From positions 1 to 64,000 of the forward strand of contig JAPOVK010000036.1 of the NCBI GenBank assembly GCA_026708185.1: a stretch of DNA of 64,000 nt, written 5' to 3'. Position numbers and translations under genes: made by a program. This document shows, in pieces, positions 20,160-37,400 of the stretch. The first letter of the stretch is position 1. Each line of letters starts with the position of its first letter. The notes below the pieces were generated by a model. That model ran no database searches and was not told the origin of the DNA. It saw nothing but the letters and a program-made list of their open reading frames with translations. Source of the stretch: Gammaproteobacteria bacterium. GTDB taxonomy: Bacteria; Pseudomonadota; Gammaproteobacteria; Pseudomonadales; Azotimanducaceae.

Positions 20160-21187
20160 TGGACAGCGCGGAAGAGCTCGTGGCGATGGTCGCGGATTGC
20201 CGGGTGGCCGAGCGGCGGATCGCGATCATGGGCCATGGGAGCAAGCCGAGGCGTGTCGCCTGGGGGCACGAGACCGGTGTCGAGGAACTCTCGACGCGCG
20301 CCCACAGCGGCATTCTGGAATACCGGCCCGAGGAACTCGTGATCACTGCGCAGAGCGGTACGCCGCTCGCGGAACTCGCCGACGCGGTAGCCGCGCAGGG
20401 CCAGCTGCTGCCGTTCGATCCGCCCCGCTTCGGCGGCGAGGGCACGCTCGGCGGGGCGATCGCGAGCGGCCTTTCGGGCCCGGCGCGGCCCTGGCGCGGC
20501 AGCATCCACGACGCCGTGTTGGGCGTGGAGTTGATCAACGGCTTGGGAGAGCGTTTGCGTTTTGGCGGCAGCGTGATGAAGAACGTTGCCGGCTACGACG
20601 TATCGCGCCTGGTCGTTGGCTCGTTGGGTAGCTTGGGCGTTGTGCTGAGTGCCAGTGTGCGCGTGCTGCCGGCGCCGGCCGCGGAGGAGACCGTTTGTAC
20701 CCGGTGTTCCGCTAGCGAGGCCGATGTGCGCGTGCGGTGCTGGGCTCGTCGGCCGCTGCCGATCACGGGGACGTGCTACGTGGACGGCACGTTGTCGATT
20801 CGGCTGTCGGGTGGTCCCGCCGCCATCGAGCCGGCCAAGGTGGACATCGCCGTCGACGAGTCGGGCGACGCTGGCATATGGGAAGCCGTCAGGGATCGCG
20901 CCCACCCGTTCTTCGGCAGGAACGACGTGATCACGCGTCTGTCCCTGCCCCGTGGCGCGCGGTTCGACGACGATGATGCCCTCATCGAGTGGGGCGGCAC
21001 CCAGGCTTGGATTGCGGGGGAGCCGCGATCTCTGGCGGCGAATGTGTACGCCGAGACGTTCCGGCGGGACGGGGACGGCTGGACGACGTCGCGACCGCCG
21101 GTCGATGGGACCGTGGCCAAGTACGTTGAGCGCGTCCGCCATGCCTTCGACCCCGACGGGGTATTCGTGGGGGCTGGCTCGGGCTGA
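20159..21187 (+). CDS. glcE: Glycolate oxidase subunit GlcE
   Basis: 342 residues. The GTG start shares its first base with the glcD stop. A truncated FAD-binding PCMH domain is visible: L-V-I-T-A-Q-S-G-T-P-L-A-E-L, F-G-G-E-G-T-L-G-G-A-I-A-S-G-L, and G-S-V-M-K-N-V-A-G-Y-D-V-S-R-L. This matches GlcE, the second flavoprotein-like subunit required for activity. The stop shares one base with the glcF ATG. Confidence 0.92.
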   Translation: MDSAEELVAMVADCRVAERRIAIMGHGSKPRRVAWGHETGVEELSTRAHSGILEYRPEELVITAQSGTPLAELADAVAAQGQLLPFDPPRFGGEGTLGGAIASGLSGPARPWRGSIHDAVLGVELINGLGERLRFGGSVMKNVAGYDVSRLVVGSLGSLGVVLSASVRVLPAPAAEETVCTRCSASEADVRVRCWARRPLPITGTCYVDGTLSIRLSGGPAAIEPAKVDIAVDESGDAGIWEAVRDRAHPFFGRNDVITRLSLPRGARFDDDDALIEWGGTQAWIAGEPRSLAANVYAETFRRDGDGWTTSRPPVDGTVAKYVERVRHAFDPDGVFVGAGSG

Positions 21188-22470
21188 TGCAGACCCGGAT
21201 CGACCCCGCCGTGCTCGCGACCGACCGTGGCCAGCGGGCCGATGAGATCCTGCGCTCGTGCGTGCATTGCGGATTTTGCAATGCCACGTGCCCGACCTAC
21301 CAGGTTCGCGGTGACGAACTCGACGGGCCGCGCGGGCGCATCTACCTGATCAAGGGCTTGCTGGAGTCGGCGCCGGGCGCAAGCGTAGCGGTGGCGCGCA
21401 CGCACCTCGATCGCTGCCTCACCTGCCGCGCTTGCGAGACCACTTGTCCGTCCGGCGTCCGCTATGGGGAGTTGGCGGAAATCGGTCGCGAGATGTTGGA
21501 GGAGCAGGCGCCGAACCGGAGCCTATTGCTGCGCCTGGTCCTGTGGATCGTGCCGCGACCCCGGCTGCTCCGTCCGCTGGTCGTGCTGGGGCGCATGTTC
21601 CGCTGGCTGCTCCCGCGACGCTACCGCCGTTTGCTCCAGCCGCCGCCACGGCACCGGCGCACGCGCCGCGTTCGGGACACACACCGCGTTCGCCGCGTTC
21701 GGGACACACACCGCGTTCGGGACACACACCGCGTTCGCGACGTCGATCGGGACACACGCGAGGCCGGTGGGGACACACGCCGCGGTCGCGCGTTGCTCTG
21801 GCAGGGCTGTGTCCAGCGCGTGGTCACACCGGAGGTGAATGCGCACTTGGCGGATTTGTTGCGCGAGCGCGGATTCGAGCCCGTCCTAGGCGCCGCCGAC
21901 GAGTGCTGCGGCGGTTTGGCGCTGCATCTCGGGCGGACCGAGGAGGCACGTGCCCTGATGGCGCGCAACGTGGGGCGACTGAGCAGTTTGGAGGCCGACG
22001 TCATCGTCTCGTCGGCAAGCGGCTGCGGCGTGACGCTGAAGGACTACGGGCGGCTGGTTGACTCGGCGGAAGCGAGTTCATTCGCCGAGCGGGTGCGTGA
22101 CGTCGCCGAGGTCCTTGCCGACTTCGACTTCCACAAGCGTCCGCGCAACGGTCACGAGATTCAGACGGTTGCTTGGCACCCGCCGTGTACGCTTCAGCAT
22201 GGCCAGCGCGTAACGGGCCTGACCGAGGGCCTGTTGCGCAAGACGGGCTATCGAGTGGTGCCGGTGGCCGATGCCCACCTCTGCTGCGGCTCCGCGGGCT
22301 CCTACAGCCTGCTGCAACCGAAGCTGGCGGGTGAACTCAAGGCGCGCAAGGCGGCAGCGCTCATGCGTCATAGCCCGGATGTGATAGCCACCGCCAATAT
22401 CGGCTGCCAGACGCATCTCGCCGATGCGGTCGACGTCCCCGTGGTGCACTGGCTGGAGTTGCTGGGCTAG
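21187..22470 (+). CDS. glcF: Glycolate oxidase iron-sulfur subunit GlcF, carrying an in-frame repeat insertion
   Basis: 427 residues with two ferredoxin-type 4Fe-4S motifs (C-V-H-C-G-F-C-N-A-T-C-P near residue 25; C-L-T-C-R-A-C-E-T-T-C-P near 78) and two CCG-domain motifs (D-E-C-C-G-G-L near 238; L-C-C-G-S-A-G near 378), the full set for GlcF. Between the two halves, residues about 157-201 are an Arg/Asp/Thr/His-rich linker (R-V-R-D-T-H-R repeated) encoded by the repeat array at 21673-21780. The frame is intact, so the protein is probably functional with a lengthened linker. ATG 21187 overlaps glcE by one base. Confidence 0.92.
   Translation: MQTRIDPAVLATDRGQRADEILRSCVHCGFCNATCPTYQVRGDELDGPRGRIYLIKGLLESAPGASVAVARTHLDRCLTCRACETTCPSGVRYGELAEIGREMLEEQAPNRSLLLRLVLWIVPRPRLLRPLVVLGRMFRWLLPRRYRRLLQPPPRHRRTRRVRDTHRVRRVRDTHRVRDTHRVRDVDRDTREAGGDTRRGRALLWQGCVQRVVTPEVNAHLADLLRERGFEPVLGAADECCGGLALHLGRTEEARALMARNVGRLSSLEADVIVSSASGCGVTLKDYGRLVDSAEASSFAERVRDVAEVLADFDFHKRPRNGHEIQTVAWHPPCTLQHGQRVTGLTEGLLRKTGYRVVPVADAHLCCGSAGSYSLLQPKLAGELKARKAAALMRHSPDVIATANIGCQTHLADAVDVPVVHWLELLG
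21673..21780 (+). repeat. GGGACACAC repeat array inside glcF
   Basis: The core GGGACACAC occurs at 21674, 21701, 21719, 21749 and 21770, separated by GCGTTCG-type spacers. It is a C-for-G variant of the GGGACAGACG core of the intergenic arrays at 28.99-29.18 kb. Irregular spacing (18-30 bases) but preserved frame suggest in-frame growth or insertion within a tolerated linker. Confidence 0.75.
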
Positions 22471-22835
22471 CGACGGGGCAATTGCGTCAGAGAGCTTTGG
22501 GCACCGCGCCTCCCGATTCGGACGAAAACGTGTCGCGTGCTTATCAGCGCGTGTTAGTCTCTGCTTGCGGCTCACAGACCTTCCGGGAACGACCAACGGT
22601 ACGATGACCGCCCGACGCCAACAAGCTTGCGAACTCGATCGTAGGCATTTGCAGCTGCGGCCTGCAGCAAGGTACGCCTCCCGCGTGACGCGACCAACGG
22701 ACACGTAAGGACCCCGTTCGTCGCGCCACGGTGGCTGCATAGCGTACAAGACCGCGGCGGCGTAGGACGCTGACTCGCTGACATCGCCCCCGGGGCTCAG
22801 GTAAGAGCCGCGCGGACGGATGCACGAGGAAAGCA
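22471..22835. other. Intergenic region after glcF
   Basis: No gene is recognised in these 365 bases. A second copy of the ATCAGCGCGTGT motif lies at 22543-22566. GAGGAAAG just before 22836 is the ribosome site of the next gene. No tRNA-like fold or promoter near consensus was seen. Confidence 0.4.
22543..22566 (+). repeat. Dispersed ATCAGCGCGTGT motif, copy 2
   Basis: ATCAGCGCGTGTTAGTCTCTG matches the 12402 copy with two differences over 21 bases. Here it points toward the small exported gene at 22836, about 270 bases upstream; in copy 1 the orientation relative to the neighbouring exported gene is opposite, which favours a repeat over a fixed operator. Confidence 0.55.
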
Positions 22836-23168
22836 ATGAACAAGCTAGTCAGACTTGCCGTGGCGGCCATGCTGTTTGCGGGGGCATCGGCGATCGCTGC
22901 CGACAGCAACCACCTACGCGAAGCCGCTGAAATCGCGAGCGGGATCGAACCCACGACCCAGAGCATGATGGAAAAGATCCCGCGCACGTGCCGGCTGCTA
23001 CGCCGCGCCGCCAAGGAGGCGGAGGGGACCGCGGATGCCGAGCGCATTGGCGATGCCATGCAGCATTGCCGCCGTGCCATGGAGGCGCTGCGCAACGGCA
23101 ATCCCAAGCATGCGTCGCAGCGTCTGCGGCGGATGATCGACCTGATCGACGGGCCGACGCCTTCGTAG
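22836..23168 (+). CDS. Small periplasmic hypothetical protein
   Basis: 110 residues with a clear signal peptide (basic M-N-K-L-V-R, hydrophobic L-A-V-A-A-M-L-F-A-G, cleavage likely after A-I-A). The mature part is about 88 residues, predicted helical, with two Cys each followed by Arg (T-C-R-L-L-R-R and H-C-R-R-A-M-E) that could form a disulfide across a helical hairpin. GAGGAAAG lies five bases before the ATG. No family is recognised. The gene stands alone, convergent with the aminotransferase. Confidence 0.7.
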   Translation: MNKLVRLAVAAMLFAGASAIAADSNHLREAAEIASGIEPTTQSMMEKIPRTCRLLRRAAKEAEGTADAERIGDAMQHCRRAMEALRNGNPKHASQRLRRMIDLIDGPTPS

Positions 23169-23204
23169 CACGTCGCGGCGCGGGCGACCGCGAGGCGAAC
23201 CGGC

Positions 23205-24389
23205 TCAATCCGGGTGCGCCAGCCGGTGCAGTGTGTTCGCGTGACGTTCCACGTAGCGGATGACGCGGTCGAGACCCTCCGCAAGGCGCTCGTGCGACTG
23301 CGCGAAACACAACCGAAAGTGAGCATCGTTGCTCGGGCCGAAGGCGTAGCCCGGCGCTAGCCCTACGTCTTCCTCGGCGAGGACGCCTTGCACGAATGCA
23401 AGGCTGTCAGTCACGCCTTCCACCCGCGGAAACGCGTAGAACGCGCCCTCGGGCATGCGCAAGTCGATCAGCGGGTGTTTGCCGAGATACTGCTCGACGA
23501 TGCGGCGCCCGTCGCGGTACTGCTCGCGCAGCGTCGTGACCGTTCCCTCGCCGTGCTCCAGGGCGGCCACACCGCCGGCTTGCGCGAACACGGTCGCGCC
23601 GGTGTTGAAACACTCGGACAGCGCGGTCCATGCGGTGCGAAGGCGGGCCGGCGTGACCACCCAACCCAGCCGCCAGCCGGTCATCGCCCACGCCTTGGAG
23701 AAGCCGTTGACCACGACCAGCGGATCGTCGTCGCGCGCTACCTCCAGAAAGGACGGTGCGTGTTCGGCTTCGAAATAGGTCCGGTGGTAGACCTCGTCCG
23801 CGATGAGCAGGATGTCGCGCTCGCGACAGAACGCGAGCAGTTCCGTTTGCGCGTCGCGGCCCATGACCCATCCCGTTGGATTGCACGGGGAGTTGACGTA
23901 GATGGAGCGCGTCTCTGGACGTACGGCGTGGATGATCTCCGAGACGTCGAGTTGCCAGCCAGCGTTCGTCTCCCGTTGACGGACGGCGGCCGTTTGGGCG
24001 CCGGCGACCCTGTAAGTGATCTCGATGTTGGGCCAGTGCGGACTCACGATCAGCGCGTGGTCGCCACTCGTTACCGCCGTCTGTGCGGCGATGGTCACGC
24101 CCATCATCGCTGAGCCGGGTACGGTGATGCGATCCGCATCGATGTCGAGACCGTAGAGGCCGTCGAGATAGCTCTTGATGGCGTCACGCAGGTTGGGGGT
24201 GCCGCGCGTGTGGGTATAGAACGTGTGCCCCGCGTCGAGAGCTGCCTTTGCCGCGTCGCGGATGAAGGCGGGCGTGACGGTATCGCCTTCCCCGAACCAC
24301 AGGGGAATGACAGCCGGGTCGCCCAAGCGCTCAAACGCCACCTTGGTGATGCCGTTTTGTTCCAGGGCCTCTATGACGGGTCTGACCAC
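23205..24389 (-). CDS. PLP-dependent class I/II aminotransferase
   Basis: A 394-residue fold-type I aminotransferase. P-L-W-F-G-E-G-D near residue 30, Y-T-H-T-R-G-T-P near 58, N-S-P-C-N-P-T-G-W near 166, A-D-E-V-Y and the Schiff-base Lys232 in N-G-F-S-K-A-W-A-M-T-G-W-R are all present. The GTG at 24389 is chosen because homologues begin with R-P-x-I-x-A-L-x-x-N-G-I; upstream in-frame codons look non-coding. A strong stem-loop precedes the start. The amino donor is not identifiable; members act on aspartate or other amino acids. Confidence 0.86.
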   Translation of the reverse strand: MVRPVIEALEQNGITKVAFERLGDPAVIPLWFGEGDTVTPAFIRDAAKAALDAGHTFYTHTRGTPNLRDAIKSYLDGLYGLDIDADRITVPGSAMMGVTIAAQTAVTSGDHALIVSPHWPNIEITYRVAGAQTAAVRQRETNAGWQLDVSEIIHAVRPETRSIYVNSPCNPTGWVMGRDAQTELLAFCRERDILLIADEVYHRTYFEAEHAPSFLEVARDDDPLVVVNGFSKAWAMTGWRLGWVVTPARLRTAWTALSECFNTGATVFAQAGGVAALEHGEGTVTTLREQYRDGRRIVEQYLGKHPLIDLRMPEGAFYAFPRVEGVTDSLAFVQGVLAEEDVGLAPGYAFGPSNDAHFRLCFAQSHERLAEGLDRVIRYVERHANTLHRLAHPD

Positions 24390-24400
24390 GGTTTGCCTTT

Positions 24401-24434
24401 CCCGAGTCGCCGTTTCCGGAGGGTGCGACTCGGG
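24401..24434 (-). promoter_or_regulatory. Stem-loop in the aminotransferase leader
   Basis: CCCGAGTCGC (24401-24410) and GCGACTCGGG (24425-24434) form a perfect 10-bp stem with a 14-base loop, ending 11 bases upstream of the aminotransferase GTG on the minus strand. Its closeness to the ribosome site suggests translational or attenuation control. No T-tract follows it. Confidence 0.5.
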
Positions 24435-24548
24435 GTCGACTGTCCGGCCTAGGCGGAAGGCGCGCAGCATAGCACCCGGCCCTGGGGCCGGACCGTGGGT
24501 CGGTGCCGTGGCGGTCAGACCGCGCAACGCGTCATTCCGCTAGGACAC

Positions 24549-24730
24549 GTGATCGAGGAGGACAGACGTGATCGAGGAGGACAAGACGTGATCGAGGAGG
24601 ACAGACGCCATCCGCCGAGGCACGTGATCGAGGACAGACGCCATTTCTGATGGCGAGGACAGACGCCATTTCTGATGGCGTGATCGAGGACAGACGCCTG
24701 ATGGCGAGACGCCAGCACGAGGACAGAACG
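24549..24730 (+). repeat. GGACAGACG repeat array with GCCAT hairpins (left of transposase)
   Basis: GGACAGACG occurs exactly at 24560, 24599, 24632, 24657 and 24688, with variants at 24579 and 24721. GTGATCGAGGAGGACAGAC is tandemly repeated from 24549 with a 19-20 base period. Two copies of GCCAT-TTCTG-ATGGC (24650 and 24667) are perfect 5-bp hairpins with a five-base loop. The block resembles a REP/BIME-like cluster and lies 400 bases from the 3' end of the Y1 transposase gene. Confidence 0.8.
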
Positions 24731-25100
24731 CCGGTTCGAAGCACCCTTTCAGGCTACTTTCGACTGCAATTTCAGACGGTTAGGACCTTCCGGACGAGAA
24801 CTAGCCTAGGTCGCTGGAACGCGAGCCTGCGCCGGCCATAGGCGGTCTCGTCGGCGATCGGGTCGGCGAAGCGGAGTTACCGACCGCCAGATCCGAGTAC
24901 CTGCGTCGGAGTTTCGTCCTGGGCGCCGATCACGAGGGCGACCTAGGTACCGCGCTTCGTCAACGTGAACAGGCGACGCTGGACGTTGTCATGTGACTGC
25001 GGCCAGTAGAGGCTCGGCTTGAGGCGCCACCCGTCAATGATGTCCCGACGAGGCGGTGACAGAGCTTGTGCCTCGCGGCTGTGCCCACGACGTGCCGATT
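24731..25100. other. Intergenic region between repeat array and transposase
   Basis: About 370 bases without a convincing gene. A minus-strand frame around 24950-25040 contains a protein-like stretch (W-R-L-K-P-S-L-Y-W-P-Q) but no supporting start or ribosome site, so it could be a gene remnant. Confidence 0.35.
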
Positions 25101-25131
25101 GGCTGCCCGCGAGTGACCAGCGTGGGCAGCC
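25101..25131 (-). terminator. Stem-loop at the transposase 3' end
   Basis: GGCTGCCC (25101-25108) pairs with GGGCAGCC (25124-25131) around a 15-base loop, directly after the transposase stop (25133-25135). It could end the transcript or be a terminal hairpin recognised by the transposase. Confidence 0.5.
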
Positions 25132-25132
25132 A

Positions 25133-26122
25133 TCACGCCGGCAGCGGCGTCTCGCGCATTTGCAGGCCTCGCCGGCCGATCCAACTCGCGAGCTCCTCCT
25201 CGGGCCCGTAGGCGCGTTGGCGTCGGCCGAGGACGGCGAGCCTCGCCAGCCAGCCGCGGACCCGGTTCGGGTGTTTCGCGGCCGGTGCCGCGACCGCGTC
25301 GGCCATCGCGCGCACCATGGCCACGTACTCGCGCACGGTGATGCCCGGCCGCGGCAGGGCCGGCGCGGGGCGCGCATGCTCCGCTGCCTCCGGCGCGGTC
25401 GCCGAGGGGTCCTCCGCGGCTTGCGGACCGCGTTCGTCGAGGCCCGACATCACGGGCGCCAGGTACGCCCGCAGCGCCTCGGCGCTGTTCTCCACGACGC
25501 GTTCCGCGATCGACGTGTGCCGGCACTGCTCGATGCGCCCTGCGATGCCGGCGCGGACGGGGTTCAGGTCCACGTACGCCATCGCCGCCAGCAGCGCCTC
25601 CTCGCTGAGCAGCGCCCCGGAGTAGTAGCGCCCGCCCCACGCGTGGCCGGACGTGCCGTTCTCCAGGTTCGCCCGCCGCGCGATCGGCTGCAGCAGGTGC
25701 TTCATGAAGTCCCCCAGCGAGCCCAGCGTCCGCCGCGCGCGCAGCAGGCGCGCCGGATTGGCGAGCAGCAGTTCGCGCGCCTCGGCCTTGCGCTCCTCGA
25801 CCACCTCGCCCTTCGCCTTCGGCGGGAACGCGTCTACCCAGCGCCGCGCCACCTCCTCGTCGCTCCACCGCCAGCAGGCCAGCGGGTCGTAGCGCGCGAC
25901 CAGGTGGAAGTGGTTGCTCATGATGCAGTAGGCGTAGATCTGCACGGCGAAGCAGCACGCCAGCAGGTTCAGGCGGTCCACCAGCCACTGCTTGCGGTGC
26001 GAGCCGTCGCGGCCGGTGGCGGGGTCGCGGCCGAACAGGAACGCCTGCTGCACGCAGCGCGACACCAGGTGGTAGTCGCAGGCGTTCACGGGGTCGACCA
26101 GGAGTCGTCGCGGAGTCGTCAT
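25133..26122 (-). CDS. REP-associated-type Y1 transposase (HUH family)
   Basis: A 329-residue protein of the IS200/TnpA-REP group. N-terminal Y-H-L-V-S-R-C-V-Q-Q-A-F-L-F-G, then I-Y-A-Y-C-I-M-S-N-H-F-H-L-V carrying the HUH metal-binding pair near residue 72, G-R-Y-Y-S-G-A-L-L, and the A-Y-V-D-L-N-P-V-R-A-G block typical of TnpA-REP. The C-terminal 130 residues are an Ala/Arg-rich extension. The gene looks intact and is flanked on both sides by GGGACAGACG-type arrays, in opposite orientation, as expected for a RAYT with its REP-like substrates. It cuts and joins single-stranded DNA at hairpins in characterised relatives. Confidence 0.85.
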   Translation of the reverse strand: MTTPRRLLVDPVNACDYHLVSRCVQQAFLFGRDPATGRDGSHRKQWLVDRLNLLACCFAVQIYAYCIMSNHFHLVARYDPLACWRWSDEEVARRWVDAFPPKAKGEVVEERKAEARELLLANPARLLRARRTLGSLGDFMKHLLQPIARRANLENGTSGHAWGGRYYSGALLSEEALLAAMAYVDLNPVRAGIAGRIEQCRHTSIAERVVENSAEALRAYLAPVMSGLDERGPQAAEDPSATAPEAAEHARPAPALPRPGITVREYVAMVRAMADAVAAPAAKHPNRVRGWLARLAVLGRRQRAYGPEEELASWIGRRGLQMRETPLPA

Positions 26123-26255
26123 GCGGGCATCGTGACGGCCCCGAATGGCGCTGTGAATGGACGATCGTCCCGTCGTCGCGTACGAGTTCCGCCCGTCGTC
26201 GCCGCGGAATCCCGGAAGCCCGCCGTGCGAAATGGCCTACACCGTGTAGGACGAC

Positions 26256-26420
26256 GCGCGCGTCTGTCCCCAAACGAGGACGTCCCCAAACGAGGACGCG
26301 TCTGTCCCCAAACGAGAACGACGACATCTGCCCGCGTAGGACGCCGGACGCGTCTGTGCCAAAGGACGAACTAGACGTGACGGCCGGCCGCAACGGCCAT
26401 GCGTGTGTCCCCAACAGCCA
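26256..26420 (-). repeat. CGTCTGTCCC repeat array (right of transposase)
   Basis: CGTCTGTCCC, the reverse complement of GGGACAGACG, is at 26261-26270 and 26299-26308, with variants at 26351 (CGTCTGTGCC) and about 26403 (GTGTGTCCCC). CCCCAAACGAG occurs three times between 26269 and 26316. The array is inverted relative to the one at 24549-24730, so the two bracket the transposase as inverted clusters. The rest of the 26123-26436 spacer holds no gene. Confidence 0.75.
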
Positions 26421-26436
26421 CGCGTGTGTTGGTCGA

Positions 26437-27117
26437 CTACGCCCCGGAGTCGGTCGTCGCTGAACTGGCCCGTTGCGCGACCAACTCGCGAACCAAGTCG
26501 TCGGTCGCGGCGAGCGCTTGCTTCCGTCCCCCGCTCATGTTGATGACGTACTTGTCGTCCACGACCACTGCGGGAACGCCAAGCAGCCCAAGCGAAATGA
26601 ACTCCTGCTCATCGGCGGTGACCGCGCGGGCGATGCGCGGGGATGCGTACGTGCGCAGGAAGGTCGCGCGTTCGATGCCGAACCCGTCGACGAAGTCCGC
26701 GATTGCCTCGACGGTATCGAAGCGGCGGTTACGGTCGTGAATAGCGCGGAAGATGCGACGTTGATTGGCGTCGGCCGCGCCGTGTCGATCCAACGCCACG
26801 TAGGCCTTGGCGAACATGCGGTTGGTCGGCGACGAGGCGATGTGGATGCGCTCGACCGTCACGCCTGCCGGAAGGTCGTCGGCCCAGTCTTCGAGCGACT
26901 CCTCGAAACGTTGGCAGATTGGGCAGGTGTAGGAAAAGAACACTGACACCTCGACATCGCCGCTGCCGTCGGGGCGGTCGAGCGCAACATAGGGTCCGTC
27001 GCTGCCGAATCCGAGGCTGTAGTAGATGCCGTAAACGGCGATTGCCGCGATGAGCACGGCGACCCCGATCAGGATGCCACTCCGGATTTCGGTGATCCTA
27101 TCCTTGCGCTTGGCCAC
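26437..27117 (-). CDS. Membrane-anchored DsbA-family thiol-disulfide oxidoreductase
   Basis: 226 residues: a basic N-terminus, one membrane segment (about residues 14-34), then a DsbA-like thioredoxin fold with F-S-Y-T-C-P-I-C-Q-R (Cys65/Cys68), a helical insert, and the cis-Pro loop G-L-L-G-V-P-A-V-V-V. CPIC instead of CPHC suggests altered redox potential. The periplasmic domain is tethered to the inner membrane. The GTG at 27117 is divergent from the glutaredoxin gene (76-base gap), which may pair two thiol-redox proteins around one control region. Confidence 0.82.
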   Translation of the reverse strand: MAKRKDRITEIRSGILIGVAVLIAAIAVYGIYYSLGFGSDGPYVALDRPDGSGDVEVSVFFSYTCPICQRFEESLEDWADDLPAGVTVERIHIASSPTNRMFAKAYVALDRHGAADANQRRIFRAIHDRNRRFDTVEAIADFVDGFGIERATFLRTYASPRIARAVTADEQEFISLGLLGVPAVVVDDKYVINMSGGRKQALAATDDLVRELVAQRASSATTDSGA

Positions 27118-27154
27118 GGGCTTGAGGTCGAGCGGCTCAACAGTCCTAGGAGTT

Positions 27155-27160
27155 TATACT
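27155..27160 (+). promoter_or_regulatory. Putative -10 hexamer of the glutaredoxin gene
   Basis: TATACT at 27155-27160, in the 76-base divergent spacer, is a good -10 match 34 bases before the ATG at 27194. No clear -35 lies at the proper distance, so activation may be needed. Confidence 0.4.
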
Positions 27161-27193
27161 GTCTGTTGCGAGATTCTCACCGTGCCGAGACCG

Positions 27194-27472
27194 ATGCCGG
27201 ACCAGTACGTCCTCTACCAGTACGACGCATGCCCGTTCTGCGCCCGGGTGCGTCGCTTCCTCCAAGCCGAGGGCATCGACATTCCGATGAAGGACACAAT
27301 GCGTGACCCGGCGGCGTTCCGCGAACTGCTGATGGGTGGTGGCCGGGCCACCGTGCCTTGCCTGCGAATAGGGGACGATGACGGCGTATTCCGCTGGCTG
27401 TACGAGTCGAGCGACATCATGGAATACCTCGCCGGCCAAACGCGCGGTCAGGCGAGCCCCATCTCGCGGTAG
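27194..27472 (+). CDS. Glutaredoxin-like protein
   Basis: About 92 residues with the dithiol motif Y-D-A-C-P-F-C-A-R (Cys13/Cys16), the R-A-T-V-P-C-L cis-Pro region and a C-terminal S-S-D-I-M-E-Y-L helix, typical of a single-domain cytoplasmic glutaredoxin. The ATG at 27194 is preferred; a GTG at 27182 adds four residues. Its 3' end overlaps that of glutamate dehydrogenase by 25 bases on the opposite strand. Confidence 0.85.
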   Translation: MPDQYVLYQYDACPFCARVRRFLQAEGIDIPMKDTMRDPAAFRELLMGGGRATVPCLRIGDDDGVFRWLYESSDIMEYLAGQTRGQASPISR

Positions 27473-28866
27473 GAGCGTTCGACTTTCTCGAGGGCGACGG
27501 CGAACGCGGCCGTCCGCAAGTCCTCGATGGCGTCGTTCTCCAGCATCACGCGGCGGACGTCGCGATAGGCACCGCGCATCGTGTCGTCCAGGCCGGAACG
27601 AACAAGGTCCAGTTCTTCCGTGCCACGCAGGAGCGGCGCCTTGAGTTCGTCCGGCACCGGCTTGCCGGTGGACTTCTCGATCATCTCGACGATACGCAGG
27701 CTGCGCTGCACGTCGAGTTGGCGCGACAGCCGGCCGAATCGCATGTGCGAGACGTTGGACACCCACTCGAAATAGCTGACCGTGACGCCGCCGGCGTTGA
27801 CCAAGAGGTCCGGCAGAACGACCTTGTTGCGCTTAAGGAGCACTCTTTCCGCGTCGAAGGTCACCGGGCCGTTCGCGGCCTCGACGATCAGCGGCGCCTT
27901 GATGTCGGCGGCGTTGGCCACTGTGATCTGGTTCTCCATGGCGGCCGGAATCAGGATGTCGCAGTCGTAGCTGAGAGCACGTGCGCTGTCGGCGACATAT
28001 TGCGTGCCGGGGAATCCGGTCACGCCGCCGGTTTCGGCGCGGTGCTCGGCGAGTGCGTGGGGCGACAGGCCGGCATCGCAGAGCACCGCACCGTCGCGTT
28101 CGATGACGCCGACCAGGAGGACGCCTTCGTTGTCTACCAGGTACTGGGCGGCGTTGAATCCGACGTTGCCAAAGCCCTGCACGATCACGCGCTTGCCCTC
28201 GAGCCCACCCTCGAGTCCGCACCGGGCAACGTCCTCGCGGTGCTCGAAGTACTCGCCGACCACGTATTGGACACCGCGGCCCGTGGCTTGCTGCCGGCCG
28301 GGGATTCCGCCCTGGGTTGCGGGTTTGCCGGTGACGCACGCCAGGGCGTCGATGTCGGACGGATAGAGCGCCCTGTACTCGTCGGCCATCCACGCCATCT
28401 CGCGTTCGCCGGTGCCCATGTCCGGTGCCGGCACGTCCCGACTGGGGCCAATGTAGCCGTGGTCGGCGAGTTCCTGGGTAAAGCGCCTGGTGATGCGTTC
28501 GAGTTCCTCCTCCGTGTAGTCCTTGGGGCGGATCGCCAGACCGCCCTTCGCGCCGCCGAACGGCACGTCGACCAATGCGCATTTGAAGGTCATCAACGCG
28601 GCGAGCGCCTCGACCTCCTGTTGGTCGACCATGGGTGCGAAACGGATGCCGCCCTTGACGGGGAGCCGGTGTTCGCTGTGCACGGCGCGCCAGCCGCAGA
28701 ACGTCCGGTAGCGGCCGCGCAGACGCACGGGGAAGCGCAGTTGGATGACCGAGTTGCATTCGCGAATCGTCTCGACCAGGTCCGGGGCGACACCCAACGC
28801 CGCGGCAGCCTTGTCGAACATCCCCCGGACGCTAGCGAGAAAGCCCGTGTCGGTTCCAGGTTCCAT
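27448..28866 (-). CDS. gdhA: Glutamate dehydrogenase (Glu/Leu/Phe/Val family)
   Basis: 472 residues. The catalytic block P-V-K-G-G-I-R-F near residue 90, F-K-C-A-L-V-D-V-P-F-G-G-A-K-G-G, P-A-P-D-M-G-T, and the nucleotide-binding V-I-V-Q-G-F-G-N-V-G-F near 240 are intact. It interconverts glutamate and 2-oxoglutarate plus ammonia with NAD(P)H. AGGAG lies about seven bases upstream of the ATG at 28866; the much longer open frame upstream is an artefact of high G+C. It may work with the GS-like ligase and the aminotransferase in nitrogen handling. Coenzyme preference cannot be read with confidence. Confidence 0.9.
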   Translation of the reverse strand: MEPGTDTGFLASVRGMFDKAAAALGVAPDLVETIRECNSVIQLRFPVRLRGRYRTFCGWRAVHSEHRLPVKGGIRFAPMVDQQEVEALAALMTFKCALVDVPFGGAKGGLAIRPKDYTEEELERITRRFTQELADHGYIGPSRDVPAPDMGTGEREMAWMADEYRALYPSDIDALACVTGKPATQGGIPGRQQATGRGVQYVVGEYFEHREDVARCGLEGGLEGKRVIVQGFGNVGFNAAQYLVDNEGVLLVGVIERDGAVLCDAGLSPHALAEHRAETGGVTGFPGTQYVADSARALSYDCDILIPAAMENQITVANAADIKAPLIVEAANGPVTFDAERVLLKRNKVVLPDLLVNAGGVTVSYFEWVSNVSHMRFGRLSRQLDVQRSLRIVEMIEKSTGKPVPDELKAPLLRGTEELDLVRSGLDDTMRGAYRDVRRVMLENDAIEDLRTAAFAVALEKVERSYREMGLA

Positions 28867-29376
28867 AGTGCGCTCCTGTGACTGCGCCCGTGAAGGTGCC
28901 GAGCCAGTGTATAGCGTGGGCACTGGGTTAGACATCGACCACGTGCTCGAGTGCAACTCGGGCCAGTCGTCGTGCCTCGGGGCAGATGCGTCTGGGAGAC
29001 GCGGAACCGTTGCGCTCTGGGACAGACGTTCGCGGGACAGACGGGGACAGACGCTCGCGTTCGGGACAGACGCGCGGGACACGTTCGGGACAGACGTGCC
29101 CGGGACAGACGGGGACAGACGCGCAGAACACGTTCGGGACAGACGTGCGGGATCATTTGCCGGACAGTTCGGGACAGACGCGCGCCTGCCGGACGCGCGC
29201 CTGCCGAAACCTGCCGTTTTCGTCGGGCCCTCGACGAGTCCGTTGGAAGCGGCCGGGACGACCGAATGTGATTGACGGGTCGCAAAGCTGGCTTGGCGAT
29301 GGACGCCGGCACTTTGGGCTTGACCGAAAACTCCAGAGCAAGCAGACTGCGCGGCCTTCCTTCCCCGGGCTCCGCG
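28867..29376. other. Long intergenic region carrying a repeat array
   Basis: This 510-base spacer between divergent gdhA and the DUF5916 gene is dominated by the repeat array at 28989-29200. Apparent reading frames over the array are repeat-encoded and not counted as genes. The remainder (about 29200-29376) could hold the DUF5916 promoter; no near-consensus hexamers were seen. Confidence 0.5.
28989..29200 (+). repeat. GGGACAGACG array, nine exact copies
   Basis: The 10-mer GGGACAGACG occurs at 29019, 29034, 29044, 29063, 29087, 29102, 29112, 29136 and 29171, with irregular spacing of 10-35 bases and intervening GCGTTC, CGCG or ACGTTC segments. Degenerate units extend on both sides, and the short unit ACGCGCGCCTGCCG repeats near 29178-29206. 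Spacing is too short and irregular for CRISPR. It shares its core with the arrays bracketing the transposase and with the glcF insertion. Confidence 0.88.
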
Positions 29377-31509
29377 ATGGCGAAAATCCGTATCGCTCGC
29401 ATCGCCGTTGCCATCTGTTTTACTGCTGCTGCGTGGGAAGCGGCGGACGGTGCGGATTTGTCTGCCCGGCCGGAAGGCACGGCAACCCGCCTTGTAGAAG
29501 CGCCGGCGCTCGATGGGCACGTGGCGTCCGACCCGGCTTGGCGGGGCGTGGTCCCGATGACGGGTTTCACGCAGTTCCAACCAGACAATGGAGAGCCCGC
29601 CTCGGAGCGAACCGAGGTGTTCATGGGCTTCACCGGAGAGGCCCTCTACATCGGGGTGATCTGCTACGAGCGGAACCCGGGAGCGATCACGAGCTCCAAC
29701 AACCCGTTCCAGTCCGATTCGATCATCGTCCTGTTCGACACCTTCAAGACCGAACAGACCGGCGTGGCGTTCGGCACCAACCCCATGGGGGTTGAATACG
29801 ACGGCCAGATTTCGGGCGGGTTCTCGGATTGGAACTGGAGCACCGTCTGGGAGGTGCGTACGTCGATCAACGAGGACGGTTGGAGCGCGGAATTCGAGAT
29901 CCCGTTTTCCTCGCTCCGCTACGGACGAGGCGTCGAGCAGGCCTGGGGCGTCAACCTCGAGCGTGTCATCCGCCGCAACAACGAAATCGCCAACTGGGCA
30001 TCCGTGCCCCGCCAGATGTCGACGTTTCGCATGGACTTGGCGGGCGAGGTGACAGGGTTGCATGTCCCAGCCAAGCGGCCTCGGAACTTGAAACTCATGC
30101 CCTATGCCCTCGGAAGCATGGCGCGCACACCGGGGGCGTCGCGCGCGGCCGACGAGGATGCCGGTCTCGACCTCAAGTACTCCATCACGCCCAGCCTGAC
30201 CTTGGACGTCACCTACAACACCGATTTCGCACAGGTTGAAGCGGACCAGCAGCAGGTGAACTTCGGTCGCTTCAGCCTCTTCTTTCCGGAAACGCGGCCG
30301 TTCTTCCTGGAGAACGCGGCGGCGTTCGAGGTCGGCATTCCCGGGGCGACGCAACTCTTCTTCAGTCGCAGGATCGGCATCGCGCCGGACGGACGCCGAC
30401 TTCCGATCGACGGGGGCGTGCGGCTGTCCGGCAAAGTGGGCAACGCGATGAACGTGGGCTTCTTGCACATGCGCGCGGCCGGTGCCGACGGGGCGCCTGA
30501 CAACGACTTCACGGTCGCCCGCGTGAAGCGCGACCTCCCGAATCGCTCGTCGTTCGGTGCCATCGCGACGAGTCGCGACGACGGGCGGACGGCCGGGCGC
30601 ACGTACGGCATCGACGGAACGCTTGGAATCGGTTTCAGCACGACGCTCGCGGGATTCGTTGCGCGCACGGACTCCGACGCGTTCGACGGCGACGAGTACA
30701 CCGTCAACCTATTCGGTGGCCACAACTCGCCGAAGTGGCAGTACAACGCCGCCTACACCGAGGTGGGTGCGGGCTTCAACCCGGAAGTCGGGTTCGTGGA
30801 CCGACGCGGCTACCGTCGATTCGGCGCTTTCCTACAGCGGAGCTACGCTGTGGATGACTTCATGGGCCTCAACGAGTGGAAGCCGCACGTCGCCTACACT
30901 GGATTCTGGGACTTCGACGGATACCACGAGAGCGGATTCCTGCACATGGACAGTTGGATGGTGTGGAAGAACGGCGCAGACCTCTGGACCGCAGTCAACG
31001 TCATGCACGAGGGCGTCAAGCAGGCGTTTCCCATCGCCGGCAACCCCGTCCCGGCGGGCGACTACGACTACGCCGAGCTGAACGTCGGGGGATCGGTCCC
31101 GCGAACCGGGCGCTGGCAGGGCGGCGGCGGATTCGCCGTCGGCGGGTTCTACAACGGCAACCGCGTCTCCCTGTTCCCGTTCCTGAACTACCGCCAGGAC
31201 GAGACCCTGACCGCCTTCGCTTCCTGGAACTACAACGCCATCGACCTGCCGACGGGCGAACCGTTCAAGGTCAACCTGGCGCGCGTAGGGTTCAACTACT
31301 CATTCACGCCGAAGGTGCGGTTGCGGGCACTCGTCCAATACAACGATGCCGACGAGGTGGTTGCCGCGAACGTGCGGTTCTCGTGGCTGCGCTCGGGCAA
31401 CGCGGGCCTCTTTCTCGTCTACAACGAGGTCGATGATCGAAGCGGTGCGCCCATGCGATCGCGACGGGAGGTCGTGCTCAAGTACAGCCACTTGTTCGAC
31501 GTGTTGTGA
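29377..31509 (+). CDS. DUF5916 outer-membrane protein with N-terminal CBM9-like domain
   Basis: 710 residues from the ATG at 29377, which begins a signal peptide (M-A-K-I-R-I-A-R-I-A-V-A-I then hydrophobic). Residues about 40-230 look like a family 9 carbohydrate-binding-like sandwich (D-G-H-V-A-S-D-P-A-W-R-G; S-D-S-I-I-V-L-F-D-T-F; G-W-S-A-E-F-E-I-P-F-S-S-L). The rest is the DUF5916 region (F-F-P-E-T-R-P-F-F-L-E-N; L-F-F-S-R-R-I-G), alternating aromatic/polar strands ending in a barrel-like C-terminus. Such proteins are thought to be outer-membrane and linked to polymer or peptide degradation. Longer in-frame starts (29272) lack signal character. Confidence 0.82.
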   Translation: MAKIRIARIAVAICFTAAAWEAADGADLSARPEGTATRLVEAPALDGHVASDPAWRGVVPMTGFTQFQPDNGEPASERTEVFMGFTGEALYIGVICYERNPGAITSSNNPFQSDSIIVLFDTFKTEQTGVAFGTNPMGVEYDGQISGGFSDWNWSTVWEVRTSINEDGWSAEFEIPFSSLRYGRGVEQAWGVNLERVIRRNNEIANWASVPRQMSTFRMDLAGEVTGLHVPAKRPRNLKLMPYALGSMARTPGASRAADEDAGLDLKYSITPSLTLDVTYNTDFAQVEADQQQVNFGRFSLFFPETRPFFLENAAAFEVGIPGATQLFFSRRIGIAPDGRRLPIDGGVRLSGKVGNAMNVGFLHMRAAGADGAPDNDFTVARVKRDLPNRSSFGAIATSRDDGRTAGRTYGIDGTLGIGFSTTLAGFVARTDSDAFDGDEYTVNLFGGHNSPKWQYNAAYTEVGAGFNPEVGFVDRRGYRRFGAFLQRSYAVDDFMGLNEWKPHVAYTGFWDFDGYHESGFLHMDSWMVWKNGADLWTAVNVMHEGVKQAFPIAGNPVPAGDYDYAELNVGGSVPRTGRWQGGGGFAVGGFYNGNRVSLFPFLNYRQDETLTAFASWNYNAIDLPTGEPFKVNLARVGFNYSFTPKVRLRALVQYNDADEVVAANVRFSWLRSGNAGLFLVYNEVDDRSGAPMRSRREVVLKYSHLFDVL

Positions 31510-37267: not shown

Positions 37268-37365
37268 GACGTGGCGGGCCGCGGTCCGCTGCCATCGTGC
37301 GGATCCGGTCCGGCCGGTAGCTTCTTGGCGCGCCCTGCACGATACAATCGCGCGCTTAACGCGCT

Positions 37366-37400
37366 TACCCGCGCGCTTTGACGCGCGTACCCGCGCGCTT
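37366..37400 (+). repeat. Short tandem repeat TACCCGCGCGCTT
   Basis: TACCCGCGCGCTT is exact at 37366-37378 and 37388-37400 within a CGCG-rich stretch starting near 37350; TACAAT at 37343-37348 is a candidate -10. A GCCGCCC-AA-GGGCGGC palindrome follows at 37404-37419. All lie in the leader of the next gene. Confidence 0.55.

Follow-up and report, generated by a model that had tools for sequence, protein, structure and literature searches.

A probable TIRtron-like element with a subclass-2.3-like Y1/HUH transposase and tandem repeats spanning its ends

RAYT-like genes (RAYT, tyrosine transposase associated with repetitive extragenic palindromes, REPs) that are flanked by terminal inverted repeats (TIRs) have been named TIRtrons, or TIRYT, and some of them share the sequence GGGGWSAS; their TIRs occur single, dimeric or grouped (available text of Di Nocera, De Gregorio, Rocco 2013, PMC3733652). 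According to the accessible part of Quentin et al. 2018 (PMC6006769), 20 of 26 TIRtron examples belong to subclass 2.1. Subclass 2.3 is characterized in the same text by proteins of ~325 amino acids with an NH-aromatic-H motif, a YVDLNP motif and an HuH-Y distance of ~110, and by several divergent copies per genome, and no REP-like flanks were found for it there. Here we analyzed positions 1 to 64,000 of contig JAPOVK010000036.1 (the window; 64 kb, 67% G+C) from a gammaproteobacterium of the Azotimanducaceae (GCA_026708185.1, source genome G000, 5.13 Mb), in which a Y1/HUH transposase gene is bracketed by arrays of the short repeat GGGACA(G/C)AC.

We hold with moderate confidence that the window carries a TIRtron-like element, composed of a subclass-2.3-type Y1/HUH gene and inverted GGGACA(G/C)AC ends, and that the arrays are tandem duplications of the junction between host DNA and element tip, generated by the mechanism proposed below. 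A TIRtron-like element is of a known kind, here with newly assigned ends. The pattern of junction duplication is well supported by the sequences compared, its mechanism is a proposal, and we infer that the repeated flank is host DNA. The features concerned are as follows.

21664-21780, plus strand: in-frame array inside glcF
24547-24731, plus strand: right-end array, with six GGACAGA tips and local flanks such as GTGATCGA; inverted with respect to the left end
25133-26122, minus strand: intact open reading frame (ORF) of a Y1/HUH transposase (RAYT class 2, subclass-2.3-like), 329 amino acids
26123-26273, minus strand: left (5') end of the element, running from the start codon out to the innermost tip, TTGGGGACAGACGCG (26259-26273)
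26256-26420, minus strand: left-end array, with tip copies preceded by the local flanks CTCGTTT and GGCTGTT
29019-29180, plus strand: nine exact tips in an array that precedes the glutamate dehydrogenase gene and has no transposase of its own adjoining

Repeat arrays and duplicated junctions

A preliminary description of this DNA had listed four clusters of the core, two of them bracketing the intact transposase ORF in inverted orientation. Both the clusters, with their core counts, and the bracketing were recovered by exact counting and by Tandem Repeats Finder (TRF), which independently called arrays at 21664-21780, 24547-24698, 26259-26320 and 29019-29152. The first array holds GGACAGACG five times on the plus strand (24560, 24599, 24632, 24657, 24688), and the array at 29019 holds GGGACAGACG nine times on the plus strand (29019, 29034, 29044, 29063, 29087, 29102, 29112, 29136, 29171). 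In the inverted array, GGGACAGACG lies on the minus strand at 26261 and 26299 and GGGACACAC on the minus strand at 26403, and inside glcF five GGGACACAC copies lie on the plus strand (21674, 21701, 21719, 21749, 21770). A single isolated GGGACAGACG copy of the window is located at 20936. Within the right array, two adjacent CGCCATTTCTGATGGCG copies at 24630-24690 form hairpins (z -2.4 compared with shuffles) and look like part of the duplicated unit of this array.

The repeat exceeds chance locally. Of 25 GGGACAGACG copies in the genome, 12 are inside the window, whereas the 13 outside it, in ~5.07 Mb, fall between two chance estimates, 5 from the reversed pattern in the genome and ~22 from base composition at the G+C content of the window. 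For CGGGACACAC the genome-wide count is 14, against 0 for its reversed control; four copies lie in glcF and ten at single sites elsewhere.

In the arrays listed, each unit consists of a tip piece of variable length and a copy of the flank just outside the tip at that end, and the flank sequence differs from array to array. The preliminary description did not see this local flank copy. The comparison was extended to relatives. Of 549 confirmed named loci the 80 listed were used, and 13 of these were dropped by hand (match from at least residue 10, or <430 nt upstream), leaving 67. L191 and L184, which repeat L164 and L170, were counted in the motif and strand tests and dropped from the TRF, pair and flank analyses. 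For the downstream sets, only genes whose frame closed after no fewer than 200 codons (named loci) or 230 codons (relatives) were taken, and any pair or region that ran into N was excluded.

Motif-blind TRF calls in 400-nt regions detected arrays in 28/65 upstream and 24/54 downstream regions, compared with 11/187 distant regions; pooled, 52/119 end flanks carried tandem arrays (Fisher 2e-15). Arrays holding the exact core GGACA/TGTCC numbered nine upstream, 12 downstream and two distant, which is 21/119 end flanks against 2/187 (Fisher 9e-8). In same-family relatives, arrays were detected in 19/34 and 12/28 end flanks compared with 14/137 distant regions, and the flanks of IS200-type genes had arrays in 4/60. 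Arrays also occur in the genomes of isolates, such as Aeromonas sp. RU39B (L253) and Pseudoalteromonas luteoviolacea (L198).

Two or more tips were present in 51 upstream regions, and 30 of these held a pair whose flanks agreed at ≥8/10 bases, a level reached by 0.5% of between-locus pairs. By the same measure 33% of 278 left pairs and 45% of 288 right pairs matched, compared with 0.4% between elements and none of 472 left-right pairs of the same element. Since flanks of the same end often match at this level and left and right flanks never do, each end has a local flank of its own. No sign of a target-site duplication enclosing the element was seen either, as none of 472 comparisons of left with reverse-complemented right flanks reached 8 of 10.

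The anatomy of single events was deduced from 49 adjacent tip pairs that parse exactly as tip prefix plus flank suffix. Removal of 13 perfect repeats of the neighbouring unit and three pairs with an overlap >4 left 33 clean events from 26 array ends. Their flank part has a median of 10 nt (interquartile range 9-12.5; 7-19 nt in 30/33), and the median is again 10 (interquartile range 9.1-12.9) with each array end taken once, while the tip part has a median of 10.5 nt and a range of 4-32. The overlap was 0-2 nt in 31/33 primary duplications. Without the three excluded pairs the mean overlap was 0.97 against a null of 0.80 (P 0.215), so most primary duplications would need little homology.

Transposase and element ends

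A block at positions 25960-26276 of the window, which extends to directly upstream of the transposase gene, is 78% identical to contig C36 of the source genome. A similar block precedes other gene copies in this genome (L022, L023), and the longer end block of the second gene copy has 11 BLAST matches in the genome at E up to 0.1, nine of them on contigs C36 and C44, which bear broken transposase copies. Because the 78% block reaches 26276 and the end-block matches accompany transposase remnants, the core was read as the outer tip of the element.

Unguided 6-mer and 7-mer lists, compiled for the 67 named-genome loci from 400 nt ahead of each transposase gene, recovered the same motif. The 6-mers were topped by ACACCC, GGACAC, AGGACA, GACACC, CACCCA and GGGACA and the 7-mers by ACACCCA, GACACCC and GGACACC, with ACACCCA in 31/67 loci (1.0 expected). 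Tips in 106 upstream regions were 211 sense and 51 antisense (~48 in shuffles), and those in 88 downstream regions were 188 inverted and 24 direct. Of the 87 elements for which both flanks were available, 55 had inverted GGACA tips on both sides. The distance from tip to start codon is 126 or 127 nt in 9/10 elements of one clade; there, the positions beyond the search-fixed GGACA retain 0.8 to 1.6 bits as far as position 11, and outside the tip the information is near zero ~nine bases out. At the level of sequence, these comparisons show a tip that is common to many elements, some from other phyla according to their record titles, and inverted at the two ends. The tips upstream of L123 (G020) are paired GGGGACACAC ... 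TGAGGACACAC units ~22 nt apart, a layout unlike that of the other elements listed.

The window gene lies between terminal inverted repeats, as TIRtron genes do, and its left end carries GGGGACAG and GGGGACAC, which agree with GGGGWSAS; many relatives have only GGACA or GGGACA. The motif had been called unrecognised in the preliminary description, and this has to be corrected, as it fits the tip given for TIRtrons in the available text of PMC3733652.

The transposase has the HUH motif H71-F-H73 and the candidate catalytic tyrosine Y183, all three of which are invariant in 30/30 aligned proteins (the window protein and 29 relatives). It was matched by the NCBIfam model REP_Tyr_transpos with 39.5 bits (E 5e-10; under the cut-off of 80) and by Pfam Y1_Tnp with 17.6 bits against a cut-off of 23, which leaves it outside IS200/IS605 by that model. 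An AlphaFold (AF2) model of the protein had a predicted local distance difference test score of 88.5. Its top fold match in the PDB was 4er8, TnpAREP of E. coli (Foldseek E 2.2e-3, probability 1.0), a modest match with TM-scores of 0.34 by query and 0.62 by target, and Foldseek gave no PDB match at E 0.001 or better. Searched by sequence, the window protein had no PDB match at E up to 1, and a profile search returned one marginal IS200 match (2f4f, E 0.8).

The protein has NHFH at 70-73 (NHYH in the published table), YVDLNP including Y183, 329 residues and an H73 to Y183 distance of 110 residues (~110 in the subclass 2.3 table). By this table of motifs and lengths, the transposase would fit subclass 2.3. 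The W motif WE of that subclass, a minor motif, is replaced by HAWGGRYY in the window protein and by FFEQRF in several relatives, and the label was therefore kept at subclass-2.3-like.

Distribution and neighbouring genes

A transposase match at E up to 1e-10 was detected in 52/117 genomes, the own genome included. Exact tandem GGGACASAC pairs (4-34 nt apart) were present in 18/117 genomes, compared with 4/117 for the reversed pattern, and their distribution was 15/52 genomes with a transposase match against 3/65 without (Fisher p 0.0005). Two of these last three genomes have a single pair, and the NCBIfam model matches G031 and G097 but not G084. The same model also matches in 3/8 tested genomes that lack both arrays and the first match. 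Among the matches listed, 12/41 array clusters were within 2.5 kb of a transposase. The earlier expectation that arrays track the transposase agrees with the comparison between genomes, but the association is loosened by the NCBIfam matches in array-less genomes and by the remaining 29/41 clusters, which are not near a detected transposase.

The glcF array is in frame, with tip spacings of 27, 18, 30 and 21 nt in G000. The window allele has 41 residues where that of G004 has 4, i.e. ~37 more, and in the predicted protein the array encodes a repeat rich in Arg, Asp, Thr and His, inserted between the 4Fe-4S and the cysteine-rich domains. The glcF of G007, 85% identical over the gene, carries more units and a longer array. 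GGGACA was not found at this place in six other same-genus alleles, where the linker is variable, and the linker of G012 holds its own longer, unrelated stretch. An array precedes the glutamate dehydrogenase gene in both G000 and G007, in syntenic position and built of different units. G007 also has a left-end array at the place of 26256-26420 and a right-end remnant at the syntenic contig edge. Because these syntenic arrays and the remnant are shared and the units differ, the element and its arrays probably predate the split of G000 and G007 and have been remodelled since. The neighbouring genes are listed below.

21187-22470: glcF, predicted glycolate oxidase subunit
23205-24392, minus strand: aminotransferase
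26437-27117, minus strand: DsbA-like protein
27182-27472: glutaredoxin/GST-N-like protein
27472-28866, minus strand: glutamate dehydrogenase

A separate repeat of 79 nt lies at 24727-24805, between the right array and the 3' end of the transposase gene. It is 94% identical to positions 41068-41146 of contig C22 of the source genome, and its inner 55-56 nt were found at three contig ends (C11, C22, C62), as the end of an unassembled multi-copy insertion sequence would be. A 22-nt tandem repeat, CGCGCGCTTTAACGCGCGTACC, with 2.4 copies and without the GGGACA tip is present at 37349-37400. An Rfam scan of 21000-30000 gave no matches at gathering thresholds. Two candidate empty sites were set aside. 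The difference between G004/G006 and G003/G010/G011 was an insertion of another, gene-like sequence without arrays, and in G000 C24 the counterpart of the G007 C68 array is 1.8 kb of different sequence with a single tip, which is not a clean empty site.

Alternative explanations and described systems

The mechanism that we propose starts with a nick by the transposase just 5' of GGGACA, the predicted site, after which the flank would end in a 3'-OH and the tip would be joined to the tyrosine. If the other strand were then cut about one helical turn into the flank, strand transfer of the short tip piece and filling of the gap would lengthen the array by the tip and about 10 bp of flank in each round. 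A staggered cut of this kind with strand transfer would fit the single events described above. The same reaction may occasionally occur at element-free sites such as glcF, and ordinary recombination would further lengthen or shorten the arrays. In its general form, which we put forward tentatively and regard as somewhat doubtful, subclass-2.3 Y1 transposases would catalyse iterative boundary copying, a previously unknown reaction in which a tip piece and about one helical turn of host flank are copied per round, making host-specific minisatellites at both ends and rarely seeding new sites, e.g. the in-frame peptide repeats of glcF. Plain replication slippage or unequal recombination, by which a duplication-prone tip region would expand with no part for the transposase after insertion, is an explanation that we consider rather unlikely. 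It would account for the 13 of 49 exactly parsed pairs that are perfect repeats of the neighbouring unit and for the different array lengths in G000 and G007, and with all non-perfect pairs kept, microhomology does exceed the null (P 0.017). On the other hand, nearly all primary duplications overlap by only 0-2 nt, both ends and elements of differing base composition are affected, arrays are far rarer in distant regions and IS200-type flanks, and the flank part is narrow where the tip part is not, a comparison made without a null model.

Several observations weigh against duplication by the transposase, or against the ends as assigned. Only the 49 pairs above, among 265 adjacent tip pairs, parse exactly. 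With the three excluded pairs (overlaps of 6, 13 and 26 nt) restored, the mean overlap rises to 1.22 against 0.81 (P 0.017; capped at 4), and because the microhomology result hinges on these pairs, slippage was weighted up and the favoured reading, together with its general form, down. All three pairs with 1-2 flank bases come from the window, one from the right array and two from the 29019 array. The exact GGACA core is present in only 21/52 named-flank arrays, the variants in the others being judged by eye, and 25/106 upstream regions have no usable tip. By the strict pattern, 37/52 transposase-bearing genomes show no tandem pair, and 29/41 clusters are solo or on contigs without a transposase among the matches listed. 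A clean pair of filled and empty sites was not found in the two cases described above, one of them a candidate from an all-against-all comparison of the loci. Finally, the bases adjoining the tip show a weak GGAnTnC preference in one clade, and the mean left-right flank identity is slightly higher than that between elements (3.5/10 vs 2.8/10), so part of the flank may be target preference or the element's own sequence.

The preliminary description had taken the repeats for a REP-like family with its own transposase, i.e. short palindromes that the transposase would recognise as hairpins with a GTAG-type foot and spread through the genome. This now appears very improbable. The homology to TnpAREP (NCBIfam model, fold match), the inverted bracketing of the gene and the excess of CGGGACACAC over its reversed pattern agree with it, as does a stem of 8 bp with TGTAGG, located ~20 nt inward of the tip in the solo ends of the source genome (GTCCTACA-GCG-TGTAGGAC). 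However, this stem was not seen in the alignment of nine elements, and the nine related left ends gave a consensus structure of only 7 pairs (-2.4 kcal/mol), with no conserved GT[AG]G-footed hairpin. Hairpins were also scarce in single-strand folds, of which one in six was better than shuffles (the 24600-24720 array, z -2.4, with two CGCCAT...ATGGCG hairpins; the other five, z -0.7 to +2.1). Many dispersed, mostly intergenic copies were likewise not found, the genome having 13 GGGACAGACG copies outside the window, 14 of CGGGACACAC and 11 end-block matches, and the protein type is one reported without REPs in the accessible part of PMC6006769. It also seems improbable that the arrays are selected binding sites (iterons) for autoregulation or recognition by the transposase. 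They often lie in the 400 nt before the start codon (28/65), which would suit such a role, but they are equally common downstream (24/54), the duplicated flank differs between ends and between elements, and one array is inside the coding gene glcF.

If the favoured reading holds, subclass 2.3, which is poorly understood and was reported to lack flanking REPs, gains defined ends on both sides and a site at which cleavage is predicted. If the duplication is enzymatic, it would be a new route by which mobile elements generate minisatellites and supply genes with peptide repeats. Searches of the open-access literature for GGGACAGAC with transposase, for GGGGACAG/GGGGACAC with tyrosine transposase and for HUH with tandem duplication returned nothing relevant, and duplication of the host flank is not described in the available texts of Di Nocera 2013 (PMC3733652) and Quentin 2018 (PMC6006769). 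Judged by this literature, tandem duplication of the host-element junction is apparently an undescribed habit.

Compared with REPtrons, REPs and REPINs (available texts of PMC2817692, PMC3733652, PMC8266576), the present element shares a related transposase and inverted repeats flanking the gene, but neither a conserved hairpin with a GTAG foot nor dispersal in high copy number was found, and the local flank is part of the repeat. With IS200/IS605 (IS608, ISDra2) it would be expected to share the HUH/Y1 chemistry, and no target duplication was seen. The ends of IS200/IS605 are, however, hairpins with guide sequences (see also the accessible part of PMC8266576), where the present element has inverted tips, and the flanks of IS200-type genes, with few arrays, are unlike its ends. 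It resembles subclass 2.3 in length, motifs, HuH-Y distance and divergent copies, and differs in the inverted GGACA tips at both ends (55/87 elements), the accessible text of PMC6006769 reporting no REP-like flanks. TIRtrons are alike in having a RAYT-like gene between terminal inverted repeats and a GGGGWSAS sequence that covers GGGGACAC and GGGGACAG, but their published clusters, in the available text of PMC3733652, are given without duplication of the local flank or repeats spanning the junction of host and tip, as found in the arrays of the window.

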